Below are positions 18,332 to 56,912 of a DNA stretch of 57,999 bases, one piece after another; within the stretch, counting starts at the first letter, position 1; each line of letters starts with the position of its first letter. The translations under genes and the position numbers were made by a program. The stretch lies in the IMG/VR virus record IMGVR_UViG_3300047560_001295, positions 1 through 57,999 of that record. One strand, written 5' to 3'. The notes beneath the pieces were generated by a model that was not told the origin of the DNA, did not search any database, and worked only from the letters and a program-made list of their open reading frames with translations. The DNA is from a virus.

Positions 18332-18900
18332 CAATGTTCTCCTATCCCGTGAAATCCTTCGGCGGCTCGAATGCCGTGTTGAAACCCAGAAATGAAATCC
18401 GAACTATCCCCATCTTTAATGCCCGCCATCATTACTTCATCCGTCATCGGCTTCCTTGCTGGCTCGGGTCTGGGTGGGTGAAGGTAGAGAGGGGCTATTG
18501 GCGCAAGACTATCGTGGTATTCTTCGTGCCTTTTTCTGTCCATACTGACCCATTGGCGGTAAGACCCGTCCTGCATTTCGGATTCAATGATCCACGCCAC
18601 AGGCTCCGCTTCTGGCTTTGGTCTGATGTATTTGCAATAAGATGTTCCGCCCTCATCACCCCACGGCCCGCCTTCGGTGCATTGACCTGCTGCTAGCGCA
18701 AAGTTTTCTTTTCGATAGTCTTCAATCGTCTCTTTCAACGTGCAAATGAGATCGGTAGTCGAGCCTTCTCTGGCTTGCCGCTCATCAAGCTCTTTGATAT
18801 GAGCCTCGAGCGATTCAATGATTTCTTGGCGTCTTGCCCAGTTACCTCGGTTAATAAGGAACAAGTAAATATCTTTCAGTAATTTTTCAGTATCAGTCAT
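18331..18900 (-). CDS. Ead/Ea22-like accessory protein
   Basis: The 189-aa protein has an N-terminal coiled coil (NRGNWARRQEIIESLEAHIK) and then the modular tail seen in many phage accessory proteins: EPVAWIIES, APLYLHPPRPEPARKPMTDE, and a final FQHGIRAAEGFHGIGEH helix. Such modules (lambda Ea22/Ead and relatives) are shuffled among phages without known function. A Cys/Gly patch (GTSYCKYIRP) lies in the middle. It overlaps its upstream neighbour by ATGA. Confidence 0.7.
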   Translation of the reverse strand: MTDTEKLLKDIYLFLINRGNWARRQEIIESLEAHIKELDERQAREGSTTDLICTLKETIEDYRKENFALAAGQCTEGGPWGDEGGTSYCKYIRPKPEAEPVAWIIESEMQDGSYRQWVSMDRKRHEEYHDSLAPIAPLYLHPPRPEPARKPMTDEVMMAGIKDGDSSDFISGFQHGIRAAEGFHGIGEH

Positions 18901-19091
18901 TTGTTCCTCCTTGAAAACGGTGAGCGCAAGTGTAGGATGCTAGCCCTGTTTTTCAGTGATGATGGTGTTCGGCTTGGAAAGGCGTCTCGAACGGCTTTCA
19001 TTCCACCGTTTCGATAGGCTTCTTTAAATACATCATCTTCTGGCTGAGTCCAGCGCCGGTAGGTATTTGGACCCCGCTTAACAAACATCAT
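18897..19091 (-). CDS. Small SANT/Myb-like DNA-binding protein
   Basis: The 64-aa protein has one compact helical domain: RRWTQPEDDVFKEAYRNGGM, then AVRDAFPSRTPSSLKNRASI. The spacing of Trp, the acidic pair, the FPSRT turn and the third helix resembles SANT/Myb-like DNA-binding domains found as single-domain phage proteins. It is coupled to both neighbours by ATGA overlaps. It may regulate transcription; there is no catalytic motif. Confidence 0.65.
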   Translation of the reverse strand: MMFVKRGPNTYRRWTQPEDDVFKEAYRNGGMKAVRDAFPSRTPSSLKNRASILHLRSPFSRRNK

Positions 19092-22810: not shown

Positions 22811-23257
22811 TTATACAAATTCAGCATTCTTTGAGTCTAGCTCCCAGATGATTCGTCTCTCGAAATAGCATAGGAAATCCTCGAGCGTGATGTCCACCGG
22901 AGCGCGCACCCTTCCCCCGACTCCATTCGGTCCAATCATCAAACTACCGACCAGCATAACACGCCATTTCACTCTACTCTGCTTATACATCAAAACAGGC
23001 ACTCTAGTCTCCCCAGCCTGCTTCAACGTCTGAGTCCACCACGCATTGATATGCAACGTCTCCTGAAACTTAATCTCAAGGGCCAACCAATCCAATCCCA
23101 CAATATCATGTCCGCCTTTCATCGTCTGCATCAGGTTCCTCTCCAGCTTAGGCACCTCCAGCCCTCTCTCCTCATACACCTTGGTAACCACAGGCTGAAG
23201 CACACTAATCGCCAACCGTTCTCCCCGTTGACCCTTGTCTCGTCCGAACTTACTCAT
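22811..23257 (-). CDS. PD-(D/E)XK nuclease-like protein
   Basis: The 148-aa protein starts at ATG 23257 (MSKFGRDKGQRGERLAISV) with GGAG five bases upstream. The core pattern of a PD-(D/E)XK nuclease is visible: a Glu in the first helix (GERLAI), then GGHDIVGLDWLALEIKFQ with Asp and the E-x-K pair, then a Gln/Trp-rich helix (INAWWTQTLKQAG) and a strand (VPVLMYKQS). It resembles stand-alone phage Holliday-junction or VRR-type nucleases. A role in recombination or DNA processing is inferred. Confidence 0.65.
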   Translation of the reverse strand: MSKFGRDKGQRGERLAISVLQPVVTKVYEERGLEVPKLERNLMQTMKGGHDIVGLDWLALEIKFQETLHINAWWTQTLKQAGETRVPVLMYKQSRVKWRVMLVGSLMIGPNGVGGRVRAPVDITLEDFLCYFERRIIWELDSKNAEFV

Positions 23258-23302
23258 TTGTTCTCCGTTTAAAGCACTTAATCCCATCATAAATCCCCAC
23301 AA

Positions 23303-25728: not shown

Positions 25729-25944
25729 TCAGAAATTGAGTTTGGTGCCGGTCAAGTGTTCGTATAGATATTGAATCCGGTTAACTGATGGGCTTTTGGT
25801 TTTGCCGGAAGCCACGGTCTTGAGCCAGTAATAAGGAATCCCCGTGTCTCTATAAATATGGAGTAGGTTCTGCCCTTTAAGCAGTTCCAAAGTCTTGACC
25901 AGCAAGGTGCTCTGCTCGTCGAAATCATCGTTTTTACTAGACAC
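25729..25944 (-). CDS. XRE-like helix-turn-helix regulator
   Basis: The 71-aa protein starts at GTG with AGGAGA just upstream (first residues MSSKNDDFDEQSTLLVKTLE). The helix-turn-helix is in LLHIYRDTGIPYYWLKTVAS followed by GKTKSPSVNRIQYLYEHLTG, typical of phage Cro/C1-type small regulators. It is the first gene of the leftward transcript and lies next to the divergent promoter region, so it may control that region. No integrase is present, so this is unlikely to be a lysogeny repressor. Confidence 0.7.
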   Translation of the reverse strand: MSSKNDDFDEQSTLLVKTLELLKGQNLLHIYRDTGIPYYWLKTVASGKTKSPSVNRIQYLYEHLTGTKLNF

Positions 25945-28115: not shown

Positions 28116-29012
28116 ATGCGACTAGCTACAAAAACCTTAAATGCAATCGAAACACAGCTTGAAGCAGATCAAGGTGCACGATTCCGTGGGCTCTTACGTA
28201 AGTATATGGAGCAGGCAGGTGACCCTTTCGACGACTCAGAAGAAGCGTTCCGATCCCATCTTGGTGCATCGCTCATTGGCCGGGAGTGTTCTCGTGAGAT
28301 ATGGTACAGCTTTCGCTGGGCTAGCAAGAAACAGTTTTCTGGGCGAATGCTTCGCTTATTTAATCGCGGTCACTTGGAGGAACCACGGTTCTTGGCATTG
28401 CTGGAGATGATCGGATGTCAAATCCATAGCCAGAACGAAGACGGTACTCAATTTCGGATGAAAGGCTACAAGGGCCATTACAGTGGTTCCCTTGACGGTG
28501 TCGGCATAAATATCCCTGACTTAGACCCTGAAATCCCGGCGCTATTGGAGTTCAAAACACACAAAGACTCCTCATTCAAAAAACTTAAGGAGGAAGGCGT
28601 CCTCAAAAGCAAATGGGAACACTTTGTCCAAATGCAACAATACATGGGCTTCTACGGTTTGAACTGGGGGCTTTATGGTGCAACCAATAAAGACACCGAC
28701 GAGCTTCATTTCGAGCTTGTGGCCAAGGACCCAGCGATTGAGCAACGCTACGGTAGCCGGGCTGAACTTATCATAGACTCAAAAACCCCTCCTCCGAAGA
28801 TTAGCACTAACCAGACTTTCTTCAAATGTAAGATGTGCGATATGGTCAGTATTTGCCACAAAGGGACTCAAATGCTGGTCAACTGCCGGACCTGCGTTCA
28901 TCTCGAACCTATCTTTGGTGGGCAATGGTATTGCTCAAAGCAGGCATCGAATCGTTCTAAAGAGGAGCAGGGAAAGCCCTGCGATGATTACCTAGCCATC
29001 AAAAACGTTTAA
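28116..29012 (+). CDS. Cas4-like PD-(D/E)XK exonuclease
   Basis: The 298-aa protein shows the Cas4/RecB-like core: RMLRLFNRGHLEEPR, then GHYSGSLDGVGI with the metal-binding Asp, PALLEFKTHKD with the E-x-K pair, and HFVQMQQYMGFYGL with the QxxxY-type helix. A C-terminal Cys cluster (CKMCDMVSICH, NCRTCVH, WYCSKQ) could hold an iron-sulphur cluster or zinc. It probably resects DNA for recombination with the Sak4-like and DUF669 proteins. Only a weak ribosome site precedes the ATG; the stop shares a base with the helicase start. Confidence 0.8.
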   Translation: MRLATKTLNAIETQLEADQGARFRGLLRKYMEQAGDPFDDSEEAFRSHLGASLIGRECSREIWYSFRWASKKQFSGRMLRLFNRGHLEEPRFLALLEMIGCQIHSQNEDGTQFRMKGYKGHYSGSLDGVGINIPDLDPEIPALLEFKTHKDSSFKKLKEEGVLKSKWEHFVQMQQYMGFYGLNWGLYGATNKDTDELHFELVAKDPAIEQRYGSRAELIIDSKTPPPKISTNQTFFKCKMCDMVSICHKGTQMLVNCRTCVHLEPIFGGQWYCSKQASNRSKEEQGKPCDDYLAIKNV

Positions 29013-30724
29013 TGATACTCAGGGATTACCAAGAGGCCGCAGTCGACAGCCTCTTTACCTATTTCGCCAAGAAGTCGGGCAATCCTATTATTGCCCTGCC
29101 CACCGGGACCGGGAAAAGCGTAGTCATAGCAAGCTTCATTCAGCGGGCTTGTTATCAGTATCCCGGTACGCGGATCATGAAGCTGACCCACAGCAAAGAG
29201 CTTATCGAACAGAATTACGAGCGGTTTTTGCAGCTCTGGCCTACTGCTCCGGCCGGAGTTTATTCGGCTGGGCTCAAACGGAAAGACACCGGAAACCCCA
29301 TAGTGTTCGGCGGCATTAGAACGGTAGCCAACGCAGATCCCGAAATCTTCGGTCGCATAGACTTGTTGCTTATCGATGAATGTCATCTGCTTTCCCCAAA
29401 GAATACTACCCAGTATCAAAAAGTCATTGCAGGCCTAAAAGAGACCAATCCCTATTTAAAAGTTGTTGGGCTGACAGCGACCCCTTATCGAATGGGCACC
29501 GGGATGCTTACCGATCCCGGCCAGCTGTTTACTGACTTGGCCTTCGACCTGACAGACTTGGAGTCTTTTAACTGGCTATTGAATCAAGGCTACCTGAGTA
29601 TGCTGGTCCCGAAGATGACTGCGCTCGAATTGGACGTTAGCGGAGTTCATTTATCCGGTGGTGAATTTAAGCAAAATGAATTGCAGGCGGCTGTCGACCA
29701 AGATGCTGTTACCCGGGCGGCTGTGGCCGAGATGGTGGAACATGGAGTCAACCGGAATCATTGGCTCATCTTCGCTTCAGGCATAGAGCACGCAGAACAT
29801 GTCACCGACATCCTTTTGGAATATGGAATCCGGGCCACTTACGTTCACTCGAAGATTAGTACCGAGCTCCGGGATGCCCGAATAGATGGATTTAAGGCAG
29901 GTTACTACCAAGCCGTCGTAAACAACGGGATTTTAACCACGGGGTTCGACTTCCCGGGCATCGACCTTATCGGGGTACTTAGACCCACACATGCGGCTTC
30001 ATTGTGGGTACAAATGCTGGGGCGTGGGACGCGTCCGGTTTATGCTCCGGGATTTGATTTATCCAGTCCGCAGGGGCGGCTGGATGCCATTAAGCAGGGG
30101 CCTAAACAAAATACGTTGGTCATGGATTTTGCCGGGAATTCTCGAAGACTTGGGCCGATCAACGATCCGATACTGCCCAAGAAAAAAGGGAAAGGCAAAG
30201 GGAAAGGCATGGCCCCAATTAAGGTGTGTCCGGCCTGTATGACATACAATCACGCCAGCGTCCGGTTCTGCACTAACTGCCTTGAGGAATTCCCAAAGGA
30301 TGTCAAGATAGAACACGAGGCCGGGACTGCTGCGCTTATAGCTGATGCAGCCATCCGTGTTTCAGACTTGAAGGTAGACAGGGTCACCTATCGAATCCAC
30401 GAAAAAGAGGGCCGGCCCCCATCCATGCAAGTGTCCTATTTTTGCGGGCTATCCATGTTTAGAGAATGGGTGTGCTTTGAGCATCAGGGCTATCCAAAAC
30501 ATAAAGCACATCAGTGGTGGCGTGAGCGGGCAGGGACTATCTTGGTCCCGACTACCACAGCCGAGGCCATGACTTATGTGGATGACCTACGTATTCCGGT
30601 TAACATCCGGGTTCAACATAAGAAATCATTTGACGAGGTAATTGGTTATGACTACACCGGACAAGCATTCTCCGAAAGCAAAAATGATGATGCGGGACCC
30701 AAGCATCCACCGGATGCTCATTGA
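29012..30724 (+). CDS. DEAD/DECH superfamily 2 helicase
   Basis: The 570-aa protein carries SF2 motifs: Walker A ALPTGTGKSVVIASF, motif II LLLIDECHLL, motif III VVGLTATPYRMG, and helicase C-terminal motifs (TTGFDFPGIDLI and QMLGRGTRPVY). A basic patch (KKKGKGKGKGM) precedes a zinc finger (CPACMTYNHASVRFCTNC). The final 120 residues (YFCGLSMFREWVCFEHQGY) resemble the DUF3305-like or nuclease-associated tails of phage repair helicases. It probably acts with the Cas4-like nuclease whose stop overlaps its start. Confidence 0.85.
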   Translation: MILRDYQEAAVDSLFTYFAKKSGNPIIALPTGTGKSVVIASFIQRACYQYPGTRIMKLTHSKELIEQNYERFLQLWPTAPAGVYSAGLKRKDTGNPIVFGGIRTVANADPEIFGRIDLLLIDECHLLSPKNTTQYQKVIAGLKETNPYLKVVGLTATPYRMGTGMLTDPGQLFTDLAFDLTDLESFNWLLNQGYLSMLVPKMTALELDVSGVHLSGGEFKQNELQAAVDQDAVTRAAVAEMVEHGVNRNHWLIFASGIEHAEHVTDILLEYGIRATYVHSKISTELRDARIDGFKAGYYQAVVNNGILTTGFDFPGIDLIGVLRPTHAASLWVQMLGRGTRPVYAPGFDLSSPQGRLDAIKQGPKQNTLVMDFAGNSRRLGPINDPILPKKKGKGKGKGMAPIKVCPACMTYNHASVRFCTNCLEEFPKDVKIEHEAGTAALIADAAIRVSDLKVDRVTYRIHEKEGRPPSMQVSYFCGLSMFREWVCFEHQGYPKHKAHQWWRERAGTILVPTTTAEAMTYVDDLRIPVNIRVQHKKSFDEVIGYDYTGQAFSESKNDDAGPKHPPDAH

Positions 30725-30866
30725 AAACTCCATAGACCGCAGTTGTTTGAATTGTGGGTTGTTCGATGCGGGGAAAGAAATCTGCCGCAACTGGGGTGTC
30801 CGGCCTCCAGCTGAGATCATCGTTTTCTCTTGCATCGAAGAATGGGAAAAAGACATCCCATTTTAA
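30684..30866 (+). CDS. Small zinc-finger-like protein
   Basis: The 60-aa protein starts in one of several ATGs near the helicase end (MMMRDPSIHRMLIENSIDRS); the exact start is uncertain. Cys residues in SCLNCGLFDAGKEICRNW and FSCIEEWEKD could hold one zinc. Small proteins with this layout follow helicase or nuclease genes in many phages. It overlaps the helicase stop by about 40 bases. Function is unknown. Confidence 0.6.
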   Translation: MMMRDPSIHRMLIENSIDRSCLNCGLFDAGKEICRNWGVRPPAEIIVFSCIEEWEKDIPF

Positions 30867-30877
30867 ACAAATAGTTG

Positions 30878-30907
30878 TTGATTCATTTAGAACAACTGTT
30901 CTAGAAT
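30878..30907 (+). promoter_or_regulatory. Promoter with internal palindromic operator
   Basis: TTGATT and TAGAAT are 18 bases apart. The spacer holds a perfect palindrome, TAGAACA-AC-TGTTCTA (30888-30903), running into the -10. The leader then folds into a hairpin around GCCGGGGGA. This promoter would drive the small membrane-protein genes and perhaps later genes. The palindrome core GAAC-N4-GTTC resembles repressor sites of LexA-type proteins, but the binder is unknown. Confidence 0.7.
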
Positions 30908-30956: not shown

Positions 30957-31133
30957 ATGGCCGCTTTTGTAACGCTTTGGATCTTTGCTGTCTTTACCCT
31001 GCTCACATTGGTTGTTTTTGGTGCTATCCAGTTCTTCAATAAAGTCCGGGATGGCCACAGGCTTACCCGGGATGAGCGTAAGCGCCGGACTCGTGATGCT
31101 AAGTATTCCCGTTTCCTTGGCGGCATCCATTAG
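30957..31133 (+). CDS. Small single-pass membrane protein (58 aa)
   Basis: The protein starts MAAFVTLWIFAVFTLLTLVV, a strong membrane segment, followed by a basic cytoplasmic-type tail (RLTRDERKRRTRDAKYSRF). GGAG lies seven bases before the ATG; an open frame to 30915 is upstream but lacks a ribosome site. It is the first of three consecutive tiny membrane proteins behind a regulated promoter. A role in host takeover is possible; nothing more can be said. Confidence 0.65.
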   Translation: MAAFVTLWIFAVFTLLTLVVFGAIQFFNKVRDGHRLTRDERKRRTRDAKYSRFLGGIH

Positions 31134-31142
31134 GAGGTTATC

Positions 31143-31280
31143 ATGTTCGAACGATTCCTGATTATCGCACTTGCTTTCATGTGTTTTGTGTTGGCCAGTG
31201 AAATGGACTACCAAGACTGGGAACGCTCTCACGATTGTGCTCCAGTATTAACAAAACCCAATCAAACAGCGGTGGGCTAA
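31143..31280 (+). CDS. Tiny membrane or secreted protein (45 aa)
   Basis: The protein starts MFERFLIIALAFMCFVLASE, a hydrophobic helix or signal peptide, with a short polar tail (YQDWERSHDCAPVLTKPNQ). A very strong ribosome site (TAGGAGG) sits five bases before the ATG, nine bases after the previous stop. One Cys in the tail could form a disulphide. Function is unknown. Confidence 0.65.
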   Translation: MFERFLIIALAFMCFVLASEMDYQDWERSHDCAPVLTKPNQTAVG

Positions 31281-31364
31281 ATGGAACATTTAATTGTTTT
31301 CGGGATGTGGTTCTTTTGTTTCTTTATGGTTGTTGGCTACATTATCCCTTGGATTTTGTTTTAA
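31281..31364 (+). CDS. Tiny membrane protein (27 aa)
   Basis: The frame follows the previous stop without a gap (TAAATG) and encodes MEHLIVFGMWFFCFFMVV followed by GYIIPWILF, almost entirely hydrophobic with many aromatic residues. Translation would rely on coupling. It looks like a single membrane helix; phages use such peptides to modify host membrane complexes, but there is no direct evidence here. Confidence 0.5.
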   Translation: MEHLIVFGMWFFCFFMVVGYIIPWILF

Positions 31365-31370
31365 AAGTTG

Positions 31371-31400
31371 TTGATGCTTTTAGATCATCTGTTCTATAAT
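31371..31400 (+). promoter_or_regulatory. Second promoter with internal operator-like palindrome
   Basis: TTGATG and TATAAT are 18 bases apart, preceded by TTG as in the promoter at 30878. The spacer carries TAGATCA-TC-TGTTCTA (31381-31396), matching the upstream operator at most positions with one mismatch between arms. The leader contains a CGGGG/CCCCG hairpin before the ribosome site. It would drive the three KVW-domain genes and possibly the deazaguanine cassette. Confidence 0.7.
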
Positions 31401-31446: not shown

Positions 31447-32040
31447 ATGAAGACCTTTTCCTCTAAATCTAATGCTCGTCGTGCGCTTAAAGTTGTTGGT
31501 GATAAGGCTCTGGAAAGAGCGGACCAACTTCTTTACCAGCTCGCTGATGGCAAGTGGGGCTTTGACGAAGAGCTTGCCGAGCTCGCTCAGTACGCCGCAG
31601 TGGCCGATACCGATATTGATTTCGACGCCCCAAGCCGCATCGTTGGTGAATTCAAAGGAATGAACACAGAGCGTTGCCCAGAATGCGGTTCCACTGAACT
31701 GTATCTTGGTGAATGCCAGCCCGGAAGCGGCGGTATTGGTTTTGTCGTCAATGAGGATTCAGTAATCGGATGCCACGCCTGCGGTTGGGAGCATCGTGAA
31801 GTAAAACAGGTTAAACATAAGAATGAAAAAGCAGCTCCGAAAGCTAAAAAGGAAACGGGTAAAGTAGAGCGAGTGTCTACGACGACTCGCCCGTGTCAGA
31901 AAGTGTGGGAAATAGCAGATGAGATGTTGAAGGCCGACCCAGCCACCAAGCGTAAGGCAATTCTCGAGAGATGCGTTGCAGCCGGGGTCGCCTATAATAC
32001 GGCTCGTACCCAGCTTCAATACTTCCTGTCTAAAAAGTAA
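31447..32040 (+). CDS. Zinc-ribbon protein with C-terminal KVW domain
   Basis: The 197-aa protein has an N-terminal helical region (SKSNARRALKVVGDKALERA), then a zinc ribbon (CPECGSTELYLGECQ and CHACGWEHREV), a Lys-rich linker, and a C-terminal domain of about 50 residues starting QKVWEIADEMLKADPATKRK and ending in an AxTQLQYF pattern. The last domain recurs in the next two proteins. This suggests nucleic-acid binding, but no family function is known to me. GGAG precedes the ATG; the stop shares a base with the next start. Confidence 0.65.
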   Translation: MKTFSSKSNARRALKVVGDKALERADQLLYQLADGKWGFDEELAELAQYAAVADTDIDFDAPSRIVGEFKGMNTERCPECGSTELYLGECQPGSGGIGFVVNEDSVIGCHACGWEHREVKQVKHKNEKAAPKAKKETGKVERVSTTTRPCQKVWEIADEMLKADPATKRKAILERCVAAGVAYNTARTQLQYFLSKK

Positions 32041-32528
32041 TGTATTACCTTATCGATCATTCAACTATGACCATCGTGGAGGTTTCGGAGAATTTCTCCT
32101 ACCTCTGCGACGTCATGGTCGACAACGCAATCATGGCCGCTAGCATTTCGCATCTTGACCATTTGTTCGACGCTTTTGACGCTTTCGCTATGCTAACAGT
32201 GTACGAAAAGCTCGCCTCGACCCAATGGCGCGGACAGCTCAATCGGGATGAGTTGGTTAAAGCTTCCACCGAATTAGCTTCGATAATTAAGCCCCGTAAA
32301 AAGATAAAGCCTGTGGCCGTATCGCCTCAAGAAGAGCCTGCCACAAAGGAAAAACCCCGGACTGGGGCTACGGCCAAAGTCTGGAAGATAGCCACAGAAC
32401 ATAAACACATCCTTGAGCATGGTTGGCCTTTATTCAGAGCCCGTGTTCTGGAGGAGTGTGCGAGCGCCGGGATTAACCCCGCGACCGCTCAAGTACAGCT
32501 TAGTAAGTGGAAGCATCAAAATACTTAG
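32040..32528 (+). CDS. Unknown protein with C-terminal KVW domain
   Basis: The 162-aa protein has an acidic helical N-terminal part (MYYLIDHSTMTIVEVSENFS), a basic linker (KPRKKIKPVAVSPQEE-like), and a C-terminal domain beginning TAKVWKIATEHKHILEHGWP and ending INPATAQVQLSKWKHQ. This domain matches those of the flanking proteins. The start overlaps the previous stop (TAATG). Function is unknown; paired expression suggests a shared process. Confidence 0.6.
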   Translation: MYYLIDHSTMTIVEVSENFSYLCDVMVDNAIMAASISHLDHLFDAFDAFAMLTVYEKLASTQWRGQLNRDELVKASTELASIIKPRKKIKPVAVSPQEEPATKEKPRTGATAKVWKIATEHKHILEHGWPLFRARVLEECASAGINPATAQVQLSKWKHQNT

Positions 32529-32575
32529 AAAAAGGAACTATCCATTAGTTTTGAGTTTCGCTAATATAGGATTGC

Positions 32576-32591
32576 GTTCTTAGTTAAGAAC
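32576..32591. repeat. Perfect palindrome upstream of the third KVW gene
   Basis: GTTCTTA-GT-TAAGAAC is a perfect 7-bp inverted repeat in the 91-base gap before the ATG at 32620. It shares the GTTC/GAAC halves of the two promoter operators but in opposite order. No canonical promoter hexamers with good spacing are seen around it. A repressor site or a transcript hairpin is possible. Confidence 0.45.
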
Positions 32592-32619
32592 TTTTCAACC
32601 CACAACTATTGGAGTTAAC

Positions 32620-32907
32620 ATGACCGAAGAAGCAAAAGCCCCGAAGAAAGAAAAAGCCCCGAAGAAAGAAAAAGTAGTTCAGCATGGTGTTGTTCGTCCG
32701 AACGCCGGTACCAAAACGGCAAAGGTTTGGGACATCGCTGATGCACTGAGCGCAAAGCATCAGGCTCCGGCCGCTCGCAAGGATGTTCTTGCTGAAGCCA
32801 CTAAGGCTGACATCAATGTTTCAACAGCCGCTACGCAGTACGGCCAGTGGCGTAAGTTCCACAATCTGGGTAAAGAACCCACCGAAAAGACTGCTGCAGC
32901 AGAATAA
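32620..32907 (+). CDS. Lys-rich protein made mainly of a KVW domain
   Basis: The 95-aa protein has a repeated basic N-terminus (KAPKKEKAPKKEKVV) and then the shared domain: TKTAKVWDIADALSAKHQAP, AARKDVLAEATKADINVST, AATQYGQWRKFHN. It is the smallest of three consecutive genes with this domain and lacks the zinc ribbon. A Lys/Pro/Glu tail plus a small helical domain recalls DNA-binding accessory proteins. GGAG is five bases before the ATG. Confidence 0.65.
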   Translation: MTEEAKAPKKEKAPKKEKVVQHGVVRPNAGTKTAKVWDIADALSAKHQAPAARKDVLAEATKADINVSTAATQYGQWRKFHNLGKEPTEKTAAAE

Positions 32908-32917
32908 GTCCCCCGAA

Positions 32918-32941
32918 GAGGGGTAGCTCCGGTTACCCCTC
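32918..32941 (+). repeat. Hairpin before queE
   Basis: GAGGGGTA and TACCCCTC form an 8-bp stem with an 8-base loop between the third KVW gene and queE. There is no following T-run, so termination is doubtful. The sequence does not match a preQ1 riboswitch. It may stabilise the upstream mRNA or partly attenuate entry into the queE operon. Confidence 0.5.
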
Positions 32942-32960: not shown

Positions 32961-33695
32961 ATGCTAAAAACTAATACCCAAGAACCAGAAAAGAAAGCCC
33001 CGCAGACCGGGGTTTTTTTAGACGTGCACAGCATCTTTCACACTATTCAAGGTGAAGGTCCTTTCTGTGGAGTACCAGCTGTCTTTATCCGCTTAGCCGG
33101 ATGCAATCTTCAATGCCCTCTTTGCGATACTGATTACACTGATGGCCGCAAGGAATTGCCGACCGGTGAAATCGTCGACACTGCTCTAGAACTCACGGCC
33201 TTAAATAAAACTAGGTTAGTAGTGATTACAGGAGGTGAGCCTTTCCGGCAAAACATTAGTAATCTCGTCTTCCAATTGCTTGGCCTCGATTTTTTTGTTC
33301 AGATCGAAACCAATGGTACTATGGCGCTCCCTTCCCGGTTCCCGGCCATGTATCTTGAAAAGGATATTAGTTTAAAAGAAGGTGTCTACATTGTAGTCAG
33401 CCCAAAAACCGGGACCGTTCATCCCAGCATTACCGAAGCGGCCTGCGCCTATAAGTATGTGGCCACAATGGAATCCATCTGTGAGGACGGACTCCCGGAC
33501 AAGGCCTTGAATCATCCGGCGCATCCAAGGCTAGCTAGGCCACCAGAGTGGTTTGCGGGATCTGTTTACCTGCAACCTGTGGATGAACGGGACATGGAAA
33601 AAGACGACGCCAATCTTGCAGCCTGTATCGAAGCTTGTTACAAGCACGGCTACACCCTTCAACTTCAAATCCACAAATACATTGGAGCTCCATAA
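32961..33695 (+). CDS. queE: QueE, 7-carboxy-7-deazaguanine synthase
   Basis: The 244-aa radical SAM enzyme has the cluster motif C48-X3-C52-X2-C55 (GCNLQCPLCDTDYTDG), a SAM-binding VVITGGEPFRQN, and IETNGTMALP. The N-terminal VHSIFHTIQGEGPFCGVPAV is the classic QueE start. It converts the QueD product CPH4 to 7-carboxy-7-deazaguanine. It is the first gene of the cassette, with GGAAG before the ATG, and its stop shares a base with the queC start. Length and motifs are normal, so activity is expected. Confidence 0.92.
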   Translation: MLKTNTQEPEKKAPQTGVFLDVHSIFHTIQGEGPFCGVPAVFIRLAGCNLQCPLCDTDYTDGRKELPTGEIVDTALELTALNKTRLVVITGGEPFRQNISNLVFQLLGLDFFVQIETNGTMALPSRFPAMYLEKDISLKEGVYIVVSPKTGTVHPSITEAACAYKYVATMESICEDGLPDKALNHPAHPRLARPPEWFAGSVYLQPVDERDMEKDDANLAACIEACYKHGYTLQLQIHKYIGAP

Positions 33696-34477
33696 TGACT
33701 ACAAAAGCCTTAGTCGTCCTTAGTGGCGGACAAGATTCAACAACGTGCCTTTTCTGGGCGCAGAAAACGTTTGATGAGATTCACGCTATTACTTTTGATT
33801 ACGGTCAGCGCCATAGTCTTGAGCTGGAAGCCGCTTTAAAAGTGGGGGAGATGGCCGGCGTTATAACCCATGAATTTGTAAAAGTCCCTAATTGTTTGGT
33901 TTCGGTTAGCCCGCTTACCAGCGACAACGAACTAGAAGAATACGATAGCTTCGAGCAGATGGACGCAACTATCGGGAATCGTCGGGAGCTGACCTTTGTG
34001 CCTATGCGCAATGCTTTATTCCTGACCATCGCAGCGAACCGGGCTGAAGCTTTGGGTATCCAAAACATCGTGACTGGTGTCTGCCAGATGGACAATGCCA
34101 ACTATGATGATTGCCGGCTGGTTTTCCTAGAAGCTACTGAGAATTACATCAACACTGCTCTTGGTCATGACCATCGTGGAACACCCCAGATTGAAATCTA
34201 CGCACCGCTCCTGATGTTGAGTAAAGCTCAAACTGTTCTCCTTGCCCGGGAGCTCCCCGGTTGTTGGGAAGCTCTGGCCTATAGCCACACGAGTTATGAT
34301 GGGCTCTACCCGCCGACTGGAATGAATCATTCCAACGTTCTTAGGGCGCAGGGTTTCCTTGAGGCCGGTCATCCAGATCCTTTAGTCCTTCGTGCTCATC
34401 GGGAAGGTCTGATGGAGCTCCCTGACACGGACAACTATAAAAACCTCCAGCTTGACTGCTTTGATGGTGGCCTCTGA
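33695..34477 (+). CDS. queC: QueC-like preQ0 synthase lacking zinc cysteines
   Basis: The 260-aa protein starts at the ATG sharing a base with the queE stop. It has the PP-loop ATPase motif VVLSGGQDSTTCLFWA, FDYGQRHSLELEAA and VTGVCQMDNANYDDCR, all typical of QueC, which converts 7-carboxy-7-deazaguanine via an amide to preQ0. The usual C-terminal zinc site C-X7/8-C-X2-C-X2-C is present in position but not in residues: Ser200, Thr208, Asn211, Asn214 (HTSYDGLYPPTGMNHSNVLR). The fold around it is otherwise conserved. Activity may be kept, altered or stopped at the amide. Confidence 0.88.
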   Translation: MTTKALVVLSGGQDSTTCLFWAQKTFDEIHAITFDYGQRHSLELEAALKVGEMAGVITHEFVKVPNCLVSVSPLTSDNELEEYDSFEQMDATIGNRRELTFVPMRNALFLTIAANRAEALGIQNIVTGVCQMDNANYDDCRLVFLEATENYINTALGHDHRGTPQIEIYAPLLMLSKAQTVLLARELPGCWEALAYSHTSYDGLYPPTGMNHSNVLRAQGFLEAGHPDPLVLRAHREGLMELPDTDNYKNLQLDCFDGGL

Positions 34478-34593
34478 TGATTACTATTCAGCAGGAACTT
34501 AGACAATACAGTACCCACTGTGGTATCTACGCAATAACCCACTCTGAAGCAAGAAAACGTTACTGGGAGAGGAAAAGAAATGAGAACAGCTGA
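34477..34593 (+). CDS. Small ORF (38 aa) between queC and queD
   Basis: The frame starts at an ATG overlapping the queC stop (TGATG) and ends 14 bases inside queD. It encodes MITIQQELRQYSTHCGIYAI and a basic end (EARKRYWERKRNENS). It may be a real coupled peptide or only a path for ribosomes toward queD, whose GAGAGG site lies inside it. No family is recognised. Confidence 0.4.
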   Translation: MITIQQELRQYSTHCGIYAITHSEARKRYWERKRNENS

Positions 34594-35050
34594 ACGTGTT
34601 CATGATTTTTCGTATGGCCATCGGGTGCATAACCATGAAAGCAAATGCGCGCATCTTCATGGTCACAACGGTAGAGTAAAGTTTGTTGTTACCGCGCCGG
34701 AATTGGATGCTTTGGGTCGGATAATGGATTTCGGTGTTATTAAAGAAAGGTTGTGTTCTTGGCTTGAAGATAATTGGGATCACAAATTTCTTGCTTGGGA
34801 AGAAGATCCTCTTATGCAAACAATGCTTTATGCAGCTTCCGATACTCAATCTGGACAAATGCTAGAAGCATCTATTGTGTGGGTACCGTTTAATCCAACC
34901 GCCGAAAATATGGCTCAATATCTAGTTGATGTGATCGGGCCTAAACAATTGGCTGGAACAGAAGTGACGCTTATTTCGGTTACTTTCGACGAAACTCGAA
35001 AATGTTCATGCACTCATTCTCTAGAGAATTTTTATGTATCATCTATCTAA
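34580..35050 (+). CDS. queD: QueD, 6-carboxytetrahydropterin synthase
   Basis: The 156-aa T-fold enzyme shows zinc ligands His14 (DFSYGHRV) and His27/His29 (KCAHLHGHN) with the catalytic Cys23 just before, and a C-terminal VTFDETRKCSCTHS with the conserved Glu. It turns dihydroneopterin triphosphate from FolE into CPH4. GAGAGG precedes the ATG. Its last 17 bases overlap the folE fusion. Length is slightly above bacterial QueD. Confidence 0.9.
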   Translation: MRTAERVHDFSYGHRVHNHESKCAHLHGHNGRVKFVVTAPELDALGRIMDFGVIKERLCSWLEDNWDHKFLAWEEDPLMQTMLYAASDTQSGQMLEASIVWVPFNPTAENMAQYLVDVIGPKQLAGTEVTLISVTFDETRKCSCTHSLENFYVSSI

Positions 35051-35924
35051 TGTTGAAATAGCTGAGCTCGCCATAGATTTGGCTGCACGTATTGAGAATG
35101 AACTTCCTTTGGCGACTCGCCGATGCTACCCGATTCCCCGCGGGGGTGTCCCCGCGGCTTACGCTTTAGCCAAATACCTTCCCGGGATGGTTATTGTGGA
35201 TACAGCTGAGGATGCGGATTTCTTTATCGATGATCTTATCGATTCGGGGACTACCGCAGACCACTGGTATAAACGTTTTCCCCAGAAACCGTTCTACGCC
35301 CTCATTACAAAGGCTTTTGGTAAGTTCGAATATGAATGGCTCGTCTTTCCTTGGGAAGGAGATGCAGAAGGAAGCATCGAAGATAACATCGTTCGCCTGC
35401 TTCAATTCTTTGGAGAAGATCCGGCGCGTGGTGGTCTGCTGGAAACACCGAAGCGCGTAGCCAAGGCTTGGAAGCATTGGACATCCGGATACACCCGGGA
35501 CCCAATGGAAGTGCTCAAAGTCTTTGAGGATGGGGCTGACCGTTGTGATGAAATGGTCGTGGTCCGGGACATCCCGTTCTACTCCCAGTGCGAACACCAT
35601 CTGGCTCCATTCTTCGGAACGGCCACCGTTGCTTACATCCCAGACGGAAAAATCGTCGGCCTATCAAAATTGTCCCGCCTTGTGGATATCTTTGCTCGCC
35701 GGTTGCAGGTTCAAGAACGGTTGACCAACCAGATTGCGGATGCTTTGGTAGATGGCCTTGATCCAAAAGGTGTGGGCGTGGTTATCCAAGCTCGCCACCT
35801 TTGCATGGAGTCTAGGGGTATCTGCCAGCAGGGCCATTCAACGGTTACATCTGCGCTACGCGGAGTCCTGAAAGACACCCCGTCAGCCCGGGCGGAATTC
35901 TTGTCGCTTGCATCACACAAATGA
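35034..35924 (+). CDS. folE: XGPRT-like phosphoribosyltransferase fused to GTP cyclohydrolase I
   Basis: The 296-aa protein has two domains. Residues 1-110 are a type I phosphoribosyltransferase: YPIPRGGVPAAYALAKYLPG and the PRPP loop FIDDLIDSGTTAD at 64-76, then FPQKPFYALITKAFGKFEYE and a WLVFPWEGD end, which align with xanthine-guanine phosphoribosyltransferase. Residues 115-296 are GTP cyclohydrolase I: LLETPKRVAKAWKHW, SQCEHHLAPFFG with Cys186 and His189, and CMESRGICQQGHSTVTSALR with Cys257. The second domain makes dihydroneopterin triphosphate from GTP; the first could supply GMP by guanine salvage (inference). Confidence 0.9.
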   Translation: MYHLSNVEIAELAIDLAARIENELPLATRRCYPIPRGGVPAAYALAKYLPGMVIVDTAEDADFFIDDLIDSGTTADHWYKRFPQKPFYALITKAFGKFEYEWLVFPWEGDAEGSIEDNIVRLLQFFGEDPARGGLLETPKRVAKAWKHWTSGYTRDPMEVLKVFEDGADRCDEMVVVRDIPFYSQCEHHLAPFFGTATVAYIPDGKIVGLSKLSRLVDIFARRLQVQERLTNQIADALVDGLDPKGVGVVIQARHLCMESRGICQQGHSTVTSALRGVLKDTPSARAEFLSLASHK

Positions 35925-35953
35925 TTGACGGCGTTTTTCGTTTAAACTAAAAT
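35925..35953 (+). promoter_or_regulatory. Sigma70 promoter after folE
   Basis: TTGACG and TAAAAT are separated by 17 bases, immediately after the folE stop. This is the best consensus promoter seen in the window. It would start transcription near 35960 and drive the DenV-like, dpdA, clamp and polymerase genes. The start point falls inside the stem of the following hairpin. Confidence 0.75.
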
Positions 35954-35984
35954 AAGGGTGTGGCCGAAAGGTTACGCCCTTTTT
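35954..35984 (+). terminator. GAAA-loop hairpin with short T-run overlapping the promoter start
   Basis: AAGGGTGTGGCC (35954-35965) and GGTTACGCCCTT (35970-35981) pair over 12 positions, four of them G-U, around a GAAA loop, followed by TTT. In read-through RNA from folE it would form a terminator. RNA starting near 35960 would lack most of the 5' arm and could not form it. Confidence 0.6.
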
Positions 35985-36003
35985 AATCAAACGGAGAAAG
36001 ACA

Positions 36004-36396
36004 ATGAGAATGTGGATGGTCGACCCAATGATTATGTGCCGCCAGCATCTTCTTGGTGAACACGTGGAATTGCATATGCTGGTAGGGACGCTCAAGCGGG
36101 GTATCTCTGTACGGGGTTATCTCCGGGACAAGTTGTTCGAGCCGGAGTCCTTGTACCAGCGCCATGAAGACCTTGTCAACGAAATGGAATGGCGTGGGTA
36201 TAACCACAAAAGTCCTCTTGATGTGGTTCCGCTGGACCATCTTCCAGACAATCCGATTGACCGGATGGCTTCGTTAGCGGAGCTTATTCGCCGGTGCCCG
36301 GAATGCCAAGCCCGGTATCATGACCTGCAGGCTGATGATGGATTACTTACAGGTCTCGCACCTCTTGAACCCAGAGTTGTTTCTTTCGAATTATGA
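36004..36396 (+). CDS. DenV-like pyrimidine dimer glycosylase family protein
   Basis: The 130-aa protein matches the pyrimidine-dimer glycosylase/endonuclease V family in its first half: MCRQHLLGEHVELHMLVG aligns with the T4 enzyme around its catalytic Glu (Glu22 here, Glu23 in T4). A conserved RHEDLVNEMEWRGYNHKSPL follows. T4 DenV uses Thr2 as nucleophile; here residue 2 is Arg after the start Met, so the same chemistry is doubtful. The C-terminus adds CPECQARYHDLQAD. It lies between folE and dpdA with its own promoter, so a role in modified-DNA handling is worth considering. Confidence 0.75.
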   Translation: MRMWMVDPMIMCRQHLLGEHVELHMLVGTLKRGISVRGYLRDKLFEPESLYQRHEDLVNEMEWRGYNHKSPLDVVPLDHLPDNPIDRMASLAELIRRCPECQARYHDLQADDGLLTGLAPLEPRVVSFEL

Positions 36397-37322
36397 AGCT
36401 ATTCTTAGCTGGTCTTTACACGAGCAATTTTGACGTGGGCGGGCGGCTTTTCGCCCGCTGCACGGAGTACGAGAGATACCAGAGGCTGTATGCGAAAAAT
36501 CTGCTGGAGTCTTATCACTACGTTCATCGACAAGCTTACGTGGATCGTATGCGGAAAGATGGTGTTCAAGTATTTCTTGACTCTGGAGCTTTCTCGGCTT
36601 GGTCTAAAGGTGTTTCAGTAGACCTCCCCAGTTACTGCCATTACATCAAGGAGAACGATGACATCTTGTTAAAGGTCGACGGGGATCTGTGGGCCTCGGT
36701 TCTTGATGCTATCGGCGATGACCAGAAGACTTTTGAAAATCAGAAGGCGATGGAAAAGCTAGGGGTTCGTCCGCTCCCCTGCTTTCACTACGGGGAAGAC
36801 CCACGCTACCTCGAGTATTATGTTGCGAACTACACTTCGATTACCATCGGAGGTCTTGTCGGTAAACCAGACAATCTAGTCCGTCCTTGGCTGGATATGA
36901 TTTGGGAAAAATACATGATTGACGGAGCTGGCCGGGCGAAGACCCGGGTCCATGGCTTCGGTCTTACAAAACCGGAAATGATGCGCCGGTATCCGTGGTT
37001 TTCCACAGACTCGTCTTCGTGGGTCCAGATAGCCGCGGCCGGTGGTATTTTGCTTCTTCCCGGCGCGAACGTAATGAGCGTGTCAGCACAAAGCCCTTCC
37101 AAACGGATTGAGAATCAACACCTAACTACACTTGCTCCCGTATTGCGAGATGCCGTCGAGGAGCGTATTCGCTCTTATGGGGGTGACCCGGAACGCCTTC
37201 AGACCGAATACCTTAGCCGTTGGTGTTACAACATCTACGCTTACACTTTACTGGGGGATACCATCACCGCAGAGAAGGCGGGGAACCCCGTGTACCAAGG
37301 CGCTCAGATAGGACTCTTCTAA
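36393..37322 (+). CDS. dpdA: DpdA-like DNA 7-deazaguanine transglycosylase
   Basis: The 309-aa protein belongs to the phage DpdA branch of the queuine tRNA-ribosyltransferase (TGT) fold. The first active-site Asp is Asp63 in FLDSGAFSAWSKG; the second region HGFGLTKPEMMRRYPWFSTD carries Asp206. TSITIGGLVGKPDN is a conserved barrel strand. Known phage DpdA enzymes exchange guanine in DNA for preQ0 or relatives. It starts with ATGA overlap on the DenV-like gene and ends one base into the clamp gene, so it is expressed with the replication proteins. Confidence 0.85.
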   Translation: MKLFLAGLYTSNFDVGGRLFARCTEYERYQRLYAKNLLESYHYVHRQAYVDRMRKDGVQVFLDSGAFSAWSKGVSVDLPSYCHYIKENDDILLKVDGDLWASVLDAIGDDQKTFENQKAMEKLGVRPLPCFHYGEDPRYLEYYVANYTSITIGGLVGKPDNLVRPWLDMIWEKYMIDGAGRAKTRVHGFGLTKPEMMRRYPWFSTDSSSWVQIAAAGGILLLPGANVMSVSAQSPSKRIENQHLTTLAPVLRDAVEERIRSYGGDPERLQTEYLSRWCYNIYAYTLLGDTITAEKAGNPVYQGAQIGLF

Positions 37323-52639: not shown

Positions 52640-54697
52640 TTAGGGTAGAAGTATTTCTGTCCAACCAACACCACCTGAAAAAGAGCCAGTGAGCTCTATT
52701 CGGTAAGTTGATTGCGGAGGAACAATACCGTTTACAAAACCAGCTTGCCCACCGGGAATAGTCATTGCGGCTAACGATAATCCTGAACCGACTCCGGTTC
52801 CACCCAACCACATTGACACTCCAATAGTGCCTGATGCTATTCCCCAAACGGAGACAAACATTGGTCTGTTTGAACTATTTGAAATGTTAGTATTGAACGA
52901 CCGCGAAACTGAGTTTACCACAGTATCATCAGCTATTCCAACATTACTCTTTATAGAGCTTCCGCCTGCGCCGGGAGAAGAATTTGTTAGCCCACCAGAA
53001 CCGTTCGAAGTAGAACTGTTTCCGACCACCGTAAAATTAGTGCAGCTCGAACCAATCAATAAACCGTAAGCCGCATTGTAGTTGAGCATATTTCCCGTAA
53101 CGGAAAAATTAGCGCAACTGTTCCCGACTTTAATCCCATAAGACTGCTGGCCTATACCGGCGGAACCACCAAGGATACATCCAGAGATAACAAAGTTACC
53201 ACCTCCGCTTTGGATCTCAATGCCGGCATAACCGCTTCCAGCGCGGCCATTAGCCCTAGCGGAGAAACCGGTAAATTCAACAGCCCCAGCGTTACTAGTT
53301 ATTGAAATACCATGCTGGTCGTTATTGACAGCTCCGCCACCAACAAAACGTACACTATCACAGTAGTCAACATAGCAACCGGATGACGGGCGATTACTGA
53401 ACCAGCAATTAGTGAAATCAAAATCCAATACTTTGTTGATATAGCAACCATTTGACGCACTATCGAAGAAGCAATTTGTAAACTTATTGAAAGCTGGGCA
53501 CGAGCCGTAAGCAAAAACTGAAGCATCAGTAGTTAAAGCGTAGGTTCCCTGATACGTTTGCCCATTCGAAAAAGACATTCCCTCTACTTGGTTGCTAAAA
53601 TGGATCGCCCCAAGAGCCCCATAGCTACTTGTGTTATCACAAAGACAGAAGAAATTATCGACCATCCAGTTGGCTGAAGCATTCCTTGGATAGAAACCGC
53701 TTGAAGCATAATTGTAAAGAACGATATTACTGAACGTGTTTGAATTACTGCTTACGCCTTCGATTGCATTAAATGCTTTTTCAATCCAGATGTTGTCGAA
53801 ATTACAGTATTGCGGATAGACCGGTGAAGGTGCGAGATAAATAGCGCTGGCACCCGTGATACCAAGCGTTTGATACTGAAGATAAACGTCTCGCAAAGTA
53901 AAGTTATACGAGGTTATATTCAGTATTTTTGCATTATTGGTGTATTGTTTAATTACAGTGCTTCGCCCAGCACCAACAAAAGTTAGATACTGAGTGTTAA
54001 CGTTGATCGCGCCAGTGATTTTGTATATTCCTGACGGAAAATAAATACTTCCGCCAGACGGAAGTGCTGCTATAGCGGCATTTATTGCCGGCAACCAATC
54101 GTAACTTGGATCTGTCTCAGACCCCGCTGGAGCGAAATCCCGGATGCTAAGGTAGTCCCCGAACATATCGCTTATAAGCCGAGAAGACGCCCCAGAAATA
54201 GGACTTCCATTATTCTTAGTGACAGGAATGGGTGAAGCGGTAGCGACCGGACCCGTAGCGCCGGTAGCACCTGCAGGACCAGTTGAGCCTGCAGGACCAG
54301 TTGGCCCAGTTGCTCCCGTCGGTCCGGGAATACCACTTAATCCGGTCGGACCGATTGGACCTGTGACACCTTGAACCCCTGTAGGACCAGTCGGACCTGT
54401 AGGTCCAATAGGACCAGTCGGGCCAACGATTACGCCGGCGTCAAACCAACTGCTTCCGCCCCAGATGTAAAGATGGCCGTTAGAAAGAACGATATAGGCA
54501 TCGTTAATCTCAGGGTCCGGCGGCAAGTCAGCTATTGTGGCCACAGAACCTTTGATAGTAGCCGAGATCCCTTGTGGCCCGGTAGCGCCGACAGGGCCGG
54601 TAGCCCCGACAGGGCCGGTAGCTCCTTGCGATGCTTCCTGAAGAGCTTGATTTAAAGCTTCAGCCGTTAAAATTTCACCATCGACGAAAATTGTCAT
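52640..54697 (-). CDS. Collagen-like/beta-helix tail spike 1
   Basis: The 685-aa protein has an N-terminal attachment part ([20 protein letters not shown]), a short Gly-X-Y shaft, the module [20 protein letters not shown] with NGHLYIWGG, more collagen triplets to about residue 155, and a pectate-lyase-type right-handed beta-helix at about 175-600 ([38 protein letters not shown]). The last 80 residues form a cap. Such spikes bind or degrade host surface sugars. Its first 90 residues are almost identical to spike 2. Confidence 0.87.
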
Positions 54698-54703
54698 TGT
54701 TTA
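54420..54703. repeat. Direct repeat copy A (spike N-terminal module)
   Basis: This 284-base stretch encodes the start and first module of spike 1 and is nearly identical at the DNA level to copy B in spike 2, including many silent positions. The few differences cluster in the collagen codons. The pattern indicates recent duplication or ongoing conversion. Confidence 0.9.
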
Positions 54704-54707
54704 AATC

Positions 54708-56912
54708 CTATGCTTTAGCGCGGCCGATTTCATACCATTGATTTCCATCATGGCGCAAGGTCAGTGTGTCGTATTGATTAAAGACCATGCTGAAAACATA
54801 AGATGGCCCAGCTAGTTTGATAGCAATTTGATTGCTTGAAATGCTACTATAAATACCGACACTTGCACTGAAAATCAAAGTAACTATTCTCCCCGGCCAG
54901 CCGTATTTTAAGGCTCCCATGTAAGACCCATCGCCGGATGCAACACTAAAAGTTGAGCCCATTTGATTAAGCGTCAGTACTGAGCTTGCTACATTACGCT
55001 GTTGGACAGATCCCCATACACCAGAACCAGCAGAACCAAATGGGAAGTCCAAAGCATCCGTATAGTTTGTATCCCCGTATATGACCATCGGGTTCGTTGT
55101 GGCTAAATTGACAGTTTTACCAACACCGATGAATGAATTGTCTTCGATTGTTATTGAAGAGCTTGAATTACCGGAGTCAGTGCTAATCCCGTTTGAAACA
55201 TTGTTAAAGCCGCAATTTGTTACAATCGCGTTTCCGTAAGCAACTAACACCCCGTGCTGAGTCGGCCCAATAACGTCGGTGTCACTAATCACCACTTCCT
55301 GAGGTACGGTCAATCCGACATACACCCCAGAAGTGACCTGAGCTGCCATTGAGCATCCGACGATTCTGGTTCCCTGCGCAAGCCCTGCGATGTAAATACC
55401 GTGTGATGCAGAGCTCGAACCCGGAACATTATCGAAACCGCAATTCATTACGGTGACGTTGTTTGTTCCGCTTGCCTGTCCGTACAGCTGAAGACCTTTT
55501 GCATAACCGTAGGAGAAGCAGTTCGTCAGCTTTGCCCAGTCGGCGGTGTCTTGTAATTGATAAGCTATACCACTTCTCTGCAGAGGACCGCCACCGGCAA
55601 TAGTTGCAAAAGGCCATGCGTGGCAGTTTTCTACATACGGTATATCGTATGAGTTCTGGATAAATACTCCGTTGATGTTATCCAGATTCAAATACGAAAG
55701 GCGCGGGCGTGACCCAATCGGCGGAACTCCTCCAATTCCGGGGAATGGGTTGCTACAGATGACAGCCATATTGAATCCAAGGATGGCGCATTTTTCGACT
55801 AGTACATCATCACCTACAATGGTAATTGCCGTGCCTGAAAACGAGGCTACACTCGATGCCGGTAAAGAAACCCCAGCGTTTCGAATCAGCAGTCCAGAAA
55901 TCGAACCGCTACTCATTATGGCTACGGTAGAGGCTCCGTTTACCAGCAAAGCCCCGCCCATAGAGGCATACGGTGTATTAGCGTTAGACCCGGGAGATCC
56001 GGTAAAAGTGTGCGGTCCTTGAAGAGTGCATCCTTGCGGGATAACCAAGTTACCATTGATTAAACAACGCAAAGTATCTGGGATACTAACAGTTCCACCA
56101 AAACCAGTTTTGAGGGATATCGCATTCCAACCACTGGTGTAAACGTAGAGCTTTCCGTCGTAGGAACTAACGTAAGCATCGTTTGCGGCTGGGGAAGATG
56201 GGAGCACCCCGGAGTTGGCCACAACGCCTTTATAGGTGATGGTTCCAGTGTATCCGATTAAGCTGAACAATGCTTTTTGTATCGCGGCAGTATCGTCGGT
56301 CACACCGTCCCCAACAGCCCCAAAATCAAGCACTGACAAACGCTCACCAAGCATATCCGCAGCGGTCCGGGCAATGGCATTTGGAATCGGAACCCCACCC
56401 TGTGACACGGTGAGACTATTTACGCCCGGCCCAGTTGGTCCAGTTGGCCCTACCGCGCCTGTGGCGCCTGTGGCGCCTATATTTCCGGATGTTCCAGTTG
56501 GTCCTGTAACCCCTTGTGGTCCTGTAACCCCTTGCGGCCCAGTTGGGCCAGTTGGGCCTGTTGCTCCGGTTGGGCCTGTTACCCCAGTAGCCCCGACAGG
56601 GCCGGTAGCTCCTTGCGCACCAGCCGGGCCGCTAGGGCCAACGATTACGCCGGCGTCAAACCAACTGCTTCCGCCCCAGATGTAAAGATGGCCGTTAGAA
56701 AGAACGATATAGGCATCGTTAATCTCAGGGTCCGGCGGCAAGTCAGCTATTGTGGCCACAGAACCTTTGATAGTAGCCGAGATCCCTTGCGGCCCGGTAG
56801 CGCCGACAGGGCCGGTAGCCCCGACAGGGCCAGTAGCCCCTTGCGAGGCTTCCTGAAGGGCTTGATTTAAAGCTTCAGCCGTTAAAATTTCACCATCGAC
56901 GAAAATTGTCAT
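54708..56912 (-). CDS. Collagen-like/beta-helix tail spike 2
   Basis: The 734-aa protein has the same N-terminus as spike 1, then different collagen triplets, then the spike start motif [20 protein letters not shown], a second sugar-binding-like module ([20 protein letters not shown]), and a beta-helix with repeats such as [17 protein letters not shown] and [20 protein letters not shown]. The cap ends [20 protein letters not shown]. The pair gives two receptor specificities on one attachment site. Short spacing to both fibre neighbours. Confidence 0.87.

Follow-up and report, generated by a model that had tools for sequence, protein, structure and literature searches.

In E. coli, DpdA together with the Gat-QueC of phage 9g suffices for modifying plasmid DNA (Hutinet et al. 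2019, PMC6884629). Vibrio phage VpKK5 and other Queuovirinae have a gene layout related to that of the DNA analysed here, and in CAjan, SD04 and others a gene located just 5' of queE is annotated as encoding a "transcriptional activator FtrA domain". The same label has been given to genes of R7M, BA3 and Iggy. FtrA is an AraC-type regulator.

The window (57,999 nt, positions 1 to 57,999 of IMG/VR record IMGVR_UViG_3300047560_001295) carries genes from queE to dpdA and so can be assigned to a phage with a 7-deazaguanine pathway. Just before these genes are three consecutive + strand ORFs, here called A, B and C, that have in common a domain of approximately 55 residues. C is of the same type as the FtrA-labelled genes. 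No experimental work on A, B or C was found in the literature.

Genomic context

On the 5' side, the trio is preceded by genes for a Sak4-like protein, a DUF669 single-strand-binding protein, a Cas4-type exonuclease (28116-29012, + strand) and a ResIII/DEAD helicase (29012-30724, + strand), the last two of which belong to a conserved upstream block. A small Cys-rich protein (SCLNC...SC...DIPF; 30648..30866, + strand) is encoded in a syntenic position between the helicase and A and matches phrog_23504 (E-value: 6.7e-15). On the 3' side, the window encodes QueE, QueC, QueD, FolE, a pyrimidine-dimer glycosylase and DpdA (32961..37322, + strand), followed by a sliding clamp and DNA polymerase A. 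The placement of the trio before a modification cassette, as described in the initial annotation, is therefore correct: queE, queC, queD, folE and dpdA lie directly downstream, in an arrangement kept in many phages. Of the relatives found, IMG/VR contig 3300047457_000466 is the closest, with 84-91% DNA identity over this region. The first 25 kb of the window has no megablast neighbour in the phage collection, and no RNA polymerase gene was recognised among the part of the window ORFs that was searched.

A number of other features were observed in the window. Three tiny tandem ORFs (approximately 58, 45 and 27 aa; 30957-31364) between the helicase block and A resemble small membrane proteins and are conserved at the DNA level in the close relative. 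The glycosylase gene between folE and dpdA (36004-36396; Pyr_excise, E-value: 9e-16) is kept in the close relative and had no match in the other loci searched. FolE (35034-35924) has an N-terminal extension of approximately 110 aa with a phosphoribosyltransferase-like motif (IDDLIDSGTT) that Pfam leaves unassigned. On the - strand, 22814-23290 encodes a Holliday-junction-resolvase-like protein (phrog_244, E-value: 1.5e-12), and a similar N-terminal GxRGE motif occurs in ORFs near the A-type gene of contigs in which that gene is outside the que block (L080, L083, L085 and L088). A small ORF at 18900-19091 (- strand) weakly matches Myb-like and T5 D5-like regulators (E-values: 0.004 in Pfam, 1.7e-4 in PHROGs), and a 71-aa protein encoded at 25732-25944 (- strand), where the left and right arms diverge, matches the transcriptional repressor family phrog_9425 (E-value: 2.8e-6). 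Two adjacent ORFs of 685 and 734 aa (52643-56912, - strand) with an identical opening sequence have the appearance of a collagen-like tail gene tandem duplication.

A domain shared by three consecutive proteins

Gene A (31447..32040, + strand) encodes a 197-aa protein with an N-terminal MKTFSSKSNARRA motif, a Cys4 zinc ribbon (aa ~75-118), a linker and the shared domain (aa ~144-194; 31876..32037, + strand; profile E-value: 2.1e-22). Gene B (32040..32528, + strand; 162 aa), whose start overlaps the stop of A (TAATG), encodes an N-terminal alpha/beta domain (aa 1-83) followed by the shared domain (aa ~107-162; 32355..32525, + strand). Gene C (32620..32907, + strand; 95 aa) encodes a Lys-rich N-terminal arm, an (N/H)GVxRP motif, the shared domain (32695..32865, + strand) and a short tail. 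This agrees with the earlier description of A as carrying a zinc ribbon (CPEC...CHAC, residues 77-112) and of B as carrying an acidic domain (12 acidic and 4 basic residues in aa 1-83). The description of C requires amendment: its Lys-rich stretch exists but is N-terminal rather than a tail, and a domain position described as C-terminal in all three proteins holds for A and B but not strictly for C, as 14 residues follow the domain.

The consensus of the domain is rpxxgtxtgxVWeiaD...Rkxvxaacxa-Gin-xaTAxTQygxWxk, with a near-invariant core VW-IAD ... R ... G ... TA-TQ-..W (n = 227 domain copies). For a non-circular test of homology, separate HMMs were built from A-, B- and C-type copies of other phages, excluding the window and its close relative, and searched against all 1068 window frames of at least 30 aa. 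The A-type profile matches C (E-value: 4.3e-15) and B (3.8e-9), the B-type profile matches C (1.3e-21) and A (3.7e-13), and the C-type profile matches B (2.7e-11) and A (4.5e-11). Each profile also recovers its own window gene, and no other frame among the 1068 falls below an E-value of 0.3. Profile-profile comparison of the three sets (hhalign) gives probabilities of 99.3-99.9%. Resemblance by chance or low complexity might be suspected from the shortness of the domains and from the low identity (26-38%) among the three copies in the window; the cross-profile E-values and the conserved synteny refute this explanation and leave it with practically no probability. The domains of A, B and C are thus confirmed as homologous, and the tandem trio recognised from the letters alone (cross-profile E-values of 1e-21 to 4e-9) is real.

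The zinc ribbon is a minority trait of the A type, as CxxC is entirely lacking from 38 of 55 A-type proteins. Two zinc-ribbon types are found. Many C proteins have long charged tails rich in Lys, Ala and Glu. In Seuratvirus, the N-terminal domain of B stands alone without the shared domain (L004, 4799-5293; phrog_7864, E-value: 2.6e-56), which is kept only in the C-type gene. The domain is basic in all three types (median pI 9.2-9.7 and median net charge +3, counted over the whole domain), whereas, taken at full length, neither A proteins (median pI 6.2) nor B proteins (7.8) are basic.

Predicted fold and database matches

An AlphaFold2 model of B (pLDDT 89.7) consists of an N-terminal beta-beta-alpha-beta-alpha-alpha domain and a C-terminal domain of three helices (residues 110-127, 129-142 and 147-161). 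The AlphaFold model of C has the same three helices (residues 32-47, 53-62 and 67-80), with a domain pLDDT of approximately 83-87, low-confidence Lys-rich ends and a 4-residue turn in the H2-turn-H3 arrangement. The same core is assigned to A through profile homology only. Unrelated folds at the three C-termini, the outcome against which the initial annotation set its proposal, are not seen: the helices follow each other in the same order in the models of B and C, and the three profiles, which provide the link to A, align at 99% or more.

Foldseek comparison with solved structures gave nothing significant, with best E-values of 2.9 for C and 1.3 for B. In a second structural ranking (VIA), Z-scores reach 5.8 and all are below 8. 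For C, this ranking is composed mostly of helix-turn-helix and winged-helix DNA-binding proteins (MCM winged helix, Z 5.7; KAT6A WH with DNA, 4.3; LuxR, 4.3; TetR types; LexA, 3.7; KorA, 3.2), and for the B domain it includes homeodomains, sigma region 4, StbA and DeoR domains. Middling Z-scores to three-helix bundles are common. Pfam yields single weak, sub-threshold matches to KorA, GcrA and HTH_29. These results are consistent with, but do not prove, a basic three-helix, helix-turn-helix-like fold for the predicted B and C domains.

Neither Pfam nor NCBIfam contains the shared domain. PHROGs divides it among several families of unknown function; the phrog_7864 profile covers the C-terminal domain of A (E-value: 2.9e-6), B (3.8e-6) and C (3e-5). 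The statement that the domain could not be matched to a known function therefore holds after database searches. A PDB sequence search with the C alignment returned nothing significant. For the N-terminal domain of B, no PDB match is listed in the fold searches with whole B, and its matches in the viral library are all phage proteins to which no function is assigned. Lar is the best or nearly best zinc-ribbon match of A in both Pfam (E-value: 0.02; 15.6 bits against a cut-off of 28.6) and NCBIfam (E-value: 0.056). Both matches are below the cut-offs, and identification of A as a Lar restriction alleviation protein is not supported. The FtrA annotation of C-type genes is also unsupported: no AraC family appears among the Pfam matches of 41 C-type proteins up to an E-value of 1, or among the NCBIfam matches of the window, STP-SP5, Iggy and RHEph04 proteins.

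Distribution and evolution

A tblastn search with C (E ≤ 1) finds 192 phage records, of which the weakest need a profile for recognition. Searching IMG/VR with the alignments of C and A yielded approximately 80 loci, which were merged to 68 contig groups. These encode 159 distinct domain proteins, each with a single copy of the domain. The order A-B-C occurs in 28 of the 68 groups and any other three-gene order at most once. The longer order of Cas4-nuclease, helicase, small Cys protein, A, B, C and queE-queC-queD-folE-dpdA recurs in dozens of distant phages. On a tree of the domains the types cluster, with 10 label changes compared to 71.7 in shuffles; the tree is based on 65 columns and resolves few forks, and the type labels were assigned by similarity. 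This separation and the recurrent gene order suggest that A, B and C form old lineages that are for the most part separate, and that the triplication probably predates the divergence of these phages. A bacterial origin of the domain was rejected: only two GTDB species genomes have matches, of which one is weak and the other, a contig of a Desulfocapsa MAG, has the same B- and C-type domain sequences as a viral contig. A plasmid search gave no matches.

QueC is encoded in 42 of 50 domain-bearing records and DpdA in 40, counts in which que-bearing phages are over-sampled because the scans used patterns from such phages, and which include IMG/VR contigs that may be incomplete. Of the records without QueC, two are contigs that end just past the locus. 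In six others the A-type genes lie outside the block, and these six have neither QueC nor DpdA. The complete genome of Salmonella phage BP63 (Rosemountvirus) encodes the helicase, the small Cys protein and then a C-like protein (profile E-value: 1.6e-5) with a similar N-terminal arm and a charged tail, with MazG and thymidylate synthase further along, and contains no QueC or DpdA. Although the first count made an exclusive tie of the domain family to the que and dpdA genes attractive, it was rejected because BP63 and the six A-type contigs lack both. The block is a replication block into which que genes are set.

Transcription

The promoter reported 5' of the trio is found as a sigma70-like site, TTGATG-N18-TATAAT (31371..31400, + strand; 10/12), which precedes A and whose core is kept in the close relative. 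Across loci, promoter-like sites (within 130 nt upstream of the first ATG of the frame) and terminator-like hairpins (within 90 nt downstream) were counted by simple consensus rules. Promoter-like sites precede A in 30 of 49 loci, C in 25 of 49 and B in 0 of 41, the last being an imperfect control as the 130 nt upstream of B are mostly coding sequence. Hairpins follow A in 6 of 49 loci, B in 2 of 41 and C in 32 of 49. These counts suggest that B rides on the promoter of A, and that C is a unit of its own, often closed before queE. In the window, the hairpin 3' of C (32918-32941) has no T-run.

A perfect inverted repeat, GTTCTTA-GT-TAAGAAC (32576..32591, + strand), lies between B and C. Both arms are kept in the close relative while the loop is changed. 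It is a single site in the window, which contains no repeated operator of this sequence. Inverted repeats upstream of C number 13 in 50 loci where 3.2 are expected (approximately fourfold), but the excess upstream of B, where no promoter-like site is seen, is as high (10 where 2.1 are expected), and the palindromes differ from phage to phage. No operator is therefore established. Two other operator candidates were rejected. TAGANCANCTGTTCTA is exact at 30886, before the small ORFs, and at 31379, before A, and absent elsewhere in the window; it is considered a local promoter duplicate rather than a shared operator. In the close relative the palindrome at the A promoter is not fully kept, its left half being degenerate, and the 30886 copy is missing. 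For a LexA-like GAAC-N4-GTTC operator, the number of sites is no higher than chance. The promoters at 30886-30907 and 31379-31400 also have TTTAGANCANCTGTTCTANAAT exactly in common, in just two copies in the window, the first of which is missing in the close relative.

Possible functions of A, B and C

The most likely role of A, B and C, proposed here with moderate confidence, is that of DNA-binding regulators of the phage's own replication and modification region. The homology, triplication, conserved order, predicted fold, basic charge and transcription layout described above come from computation; what we infer comprises DNA binding, its sequence specificity, autoregulation and the direction of regulation. 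The proposed model is as follows. A, B and C would be paralogues of ancient origin, built around a single phage-specific DNA-binding domain that is basic and has three helices (helix-turn-helix-like). The partner segment would differ between them: a zinc ribbon in A, a small alpha/beta domain in B and a charged tail in C. A and B would be co-produced from the promoter before A, and C would have a promoter to itself and form a short unit apart from them, which in most cases ends in a terminator. Together they would regulate the replication and modification region of a genome presumably read by host RNA polymerase. Several observations weigh against this model: structural matches are not significant (Foldseek E-values above 1, VIA Z-scores below 8), the palindrome before C has no second copy in the window that would make it a repeated operator, the palindrome excess is as high before B, where no promoter-like site is seen, the palindrome at the A promoter is partly lost in the closest relative, and the FtrA activator labels have no AraC or FtrA match behind them. 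The main rival, which is rather unlikely, holds that A, B and C are abundant, largely non-specific architectural or replication-accessory proteins, which would cover or arrange the phage DNA during replication or help the helicase, exonuclease or single-strand-binding protein encoded nearby. The strict neighbourhood with the Cas4-exonuclease and helicase, between the replication genes and the clamp and polymerase, fits this rival, as do the long Lys/Ala/Glu-rich tails of many C proteins, the same slot being filled in BP63 in the absence of a modification cassette, the lack of a repeated operator in the window, and a separate promoter-terminator unit for C that suggests strong expression. However, a bulk DNA coat would not need three distinct paralogues with a fixed gene order, and neither full-length A nor full-length B is basic overall.

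The initial annotation had suggested nucleic-acid or host-factor binders. The nucleic-acid part is favoured by the predicted helix-turn-helix-like fold, the basic domain and the zinc ribbon fused to it in A; for the host-factor part no support was found. That the shared domain is a protein-interaction module for host factors such as RNA polymerase or host defence is improbable. The solitary N-terminal domain of B in Seuratvirus, which suggests a role of its own, and the weak, sub-cut-off Lar score of the A zinc ribbon would be in keeping with it, but the same basic domain is kept across phages of very different hosts and no known host-takeover family is matched. It is very improbable that A, B and C are accessory factors of the 7-deazaguanine system that recruit DpdA or recognise modified DNA. 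QueC and DpdA accompany the domain in most records and queE directly follows C in most loci; however, BP63 and the six A-type contigs have the domain without QueC or DpdA, mycobacteriophages with DpdA gave no tblastn match to C, and the 9g proteins named above are enough for plasmid modification. A more novel and speculative reading, scarcely more probable than an accessory role, is that the three proteins work as a small regulatory group. They would sense the replication or modification status of the phage genome and set the moment at which replication and base modification give way to late transcription, each with an output of its own owing to its partner (zinc ribbon, alpha/beta domain or charged tail).

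Comparison with known systems

KorA/TrfB and other small helix-turn-helix regulators of plasmids and phages likewise consist of a small basic multi-helix domain, and KorA appears at Z 3.0-3.2 and as a weak Pfam match. However, the domain of A, B and C has no significant sequence or structure match to this type, and its partner segments differ. Lar has a zinc ribbon weakly like that of A but does not have the shared domain. Two earlier readings can be corrected: the FtrA label on C-type genes of CAjan, SD04 and other phages is not supported by the family searches, and the domain family is not exclusively linked to the modification cassette. Despite lacking an entry in Pfam and NCBIfam, the domain occurs next to the replication genes in many Queuovirinae and related phages, among them CAjan and other well-studied phages of E. 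coli. PHROGs places the B family in phrog_7864, which matches the C-termini of all three proteins, and C-type proteins in phrog_18634, phrog_11298 and phrog_21588, without linking the four as one domain or giving a function. Naming the domain joins these entries into a single family that is ordinary in kind but has an unnamed, triplicated domain, and that is a testable candidate for the control of replication and DNA modification in these phages.
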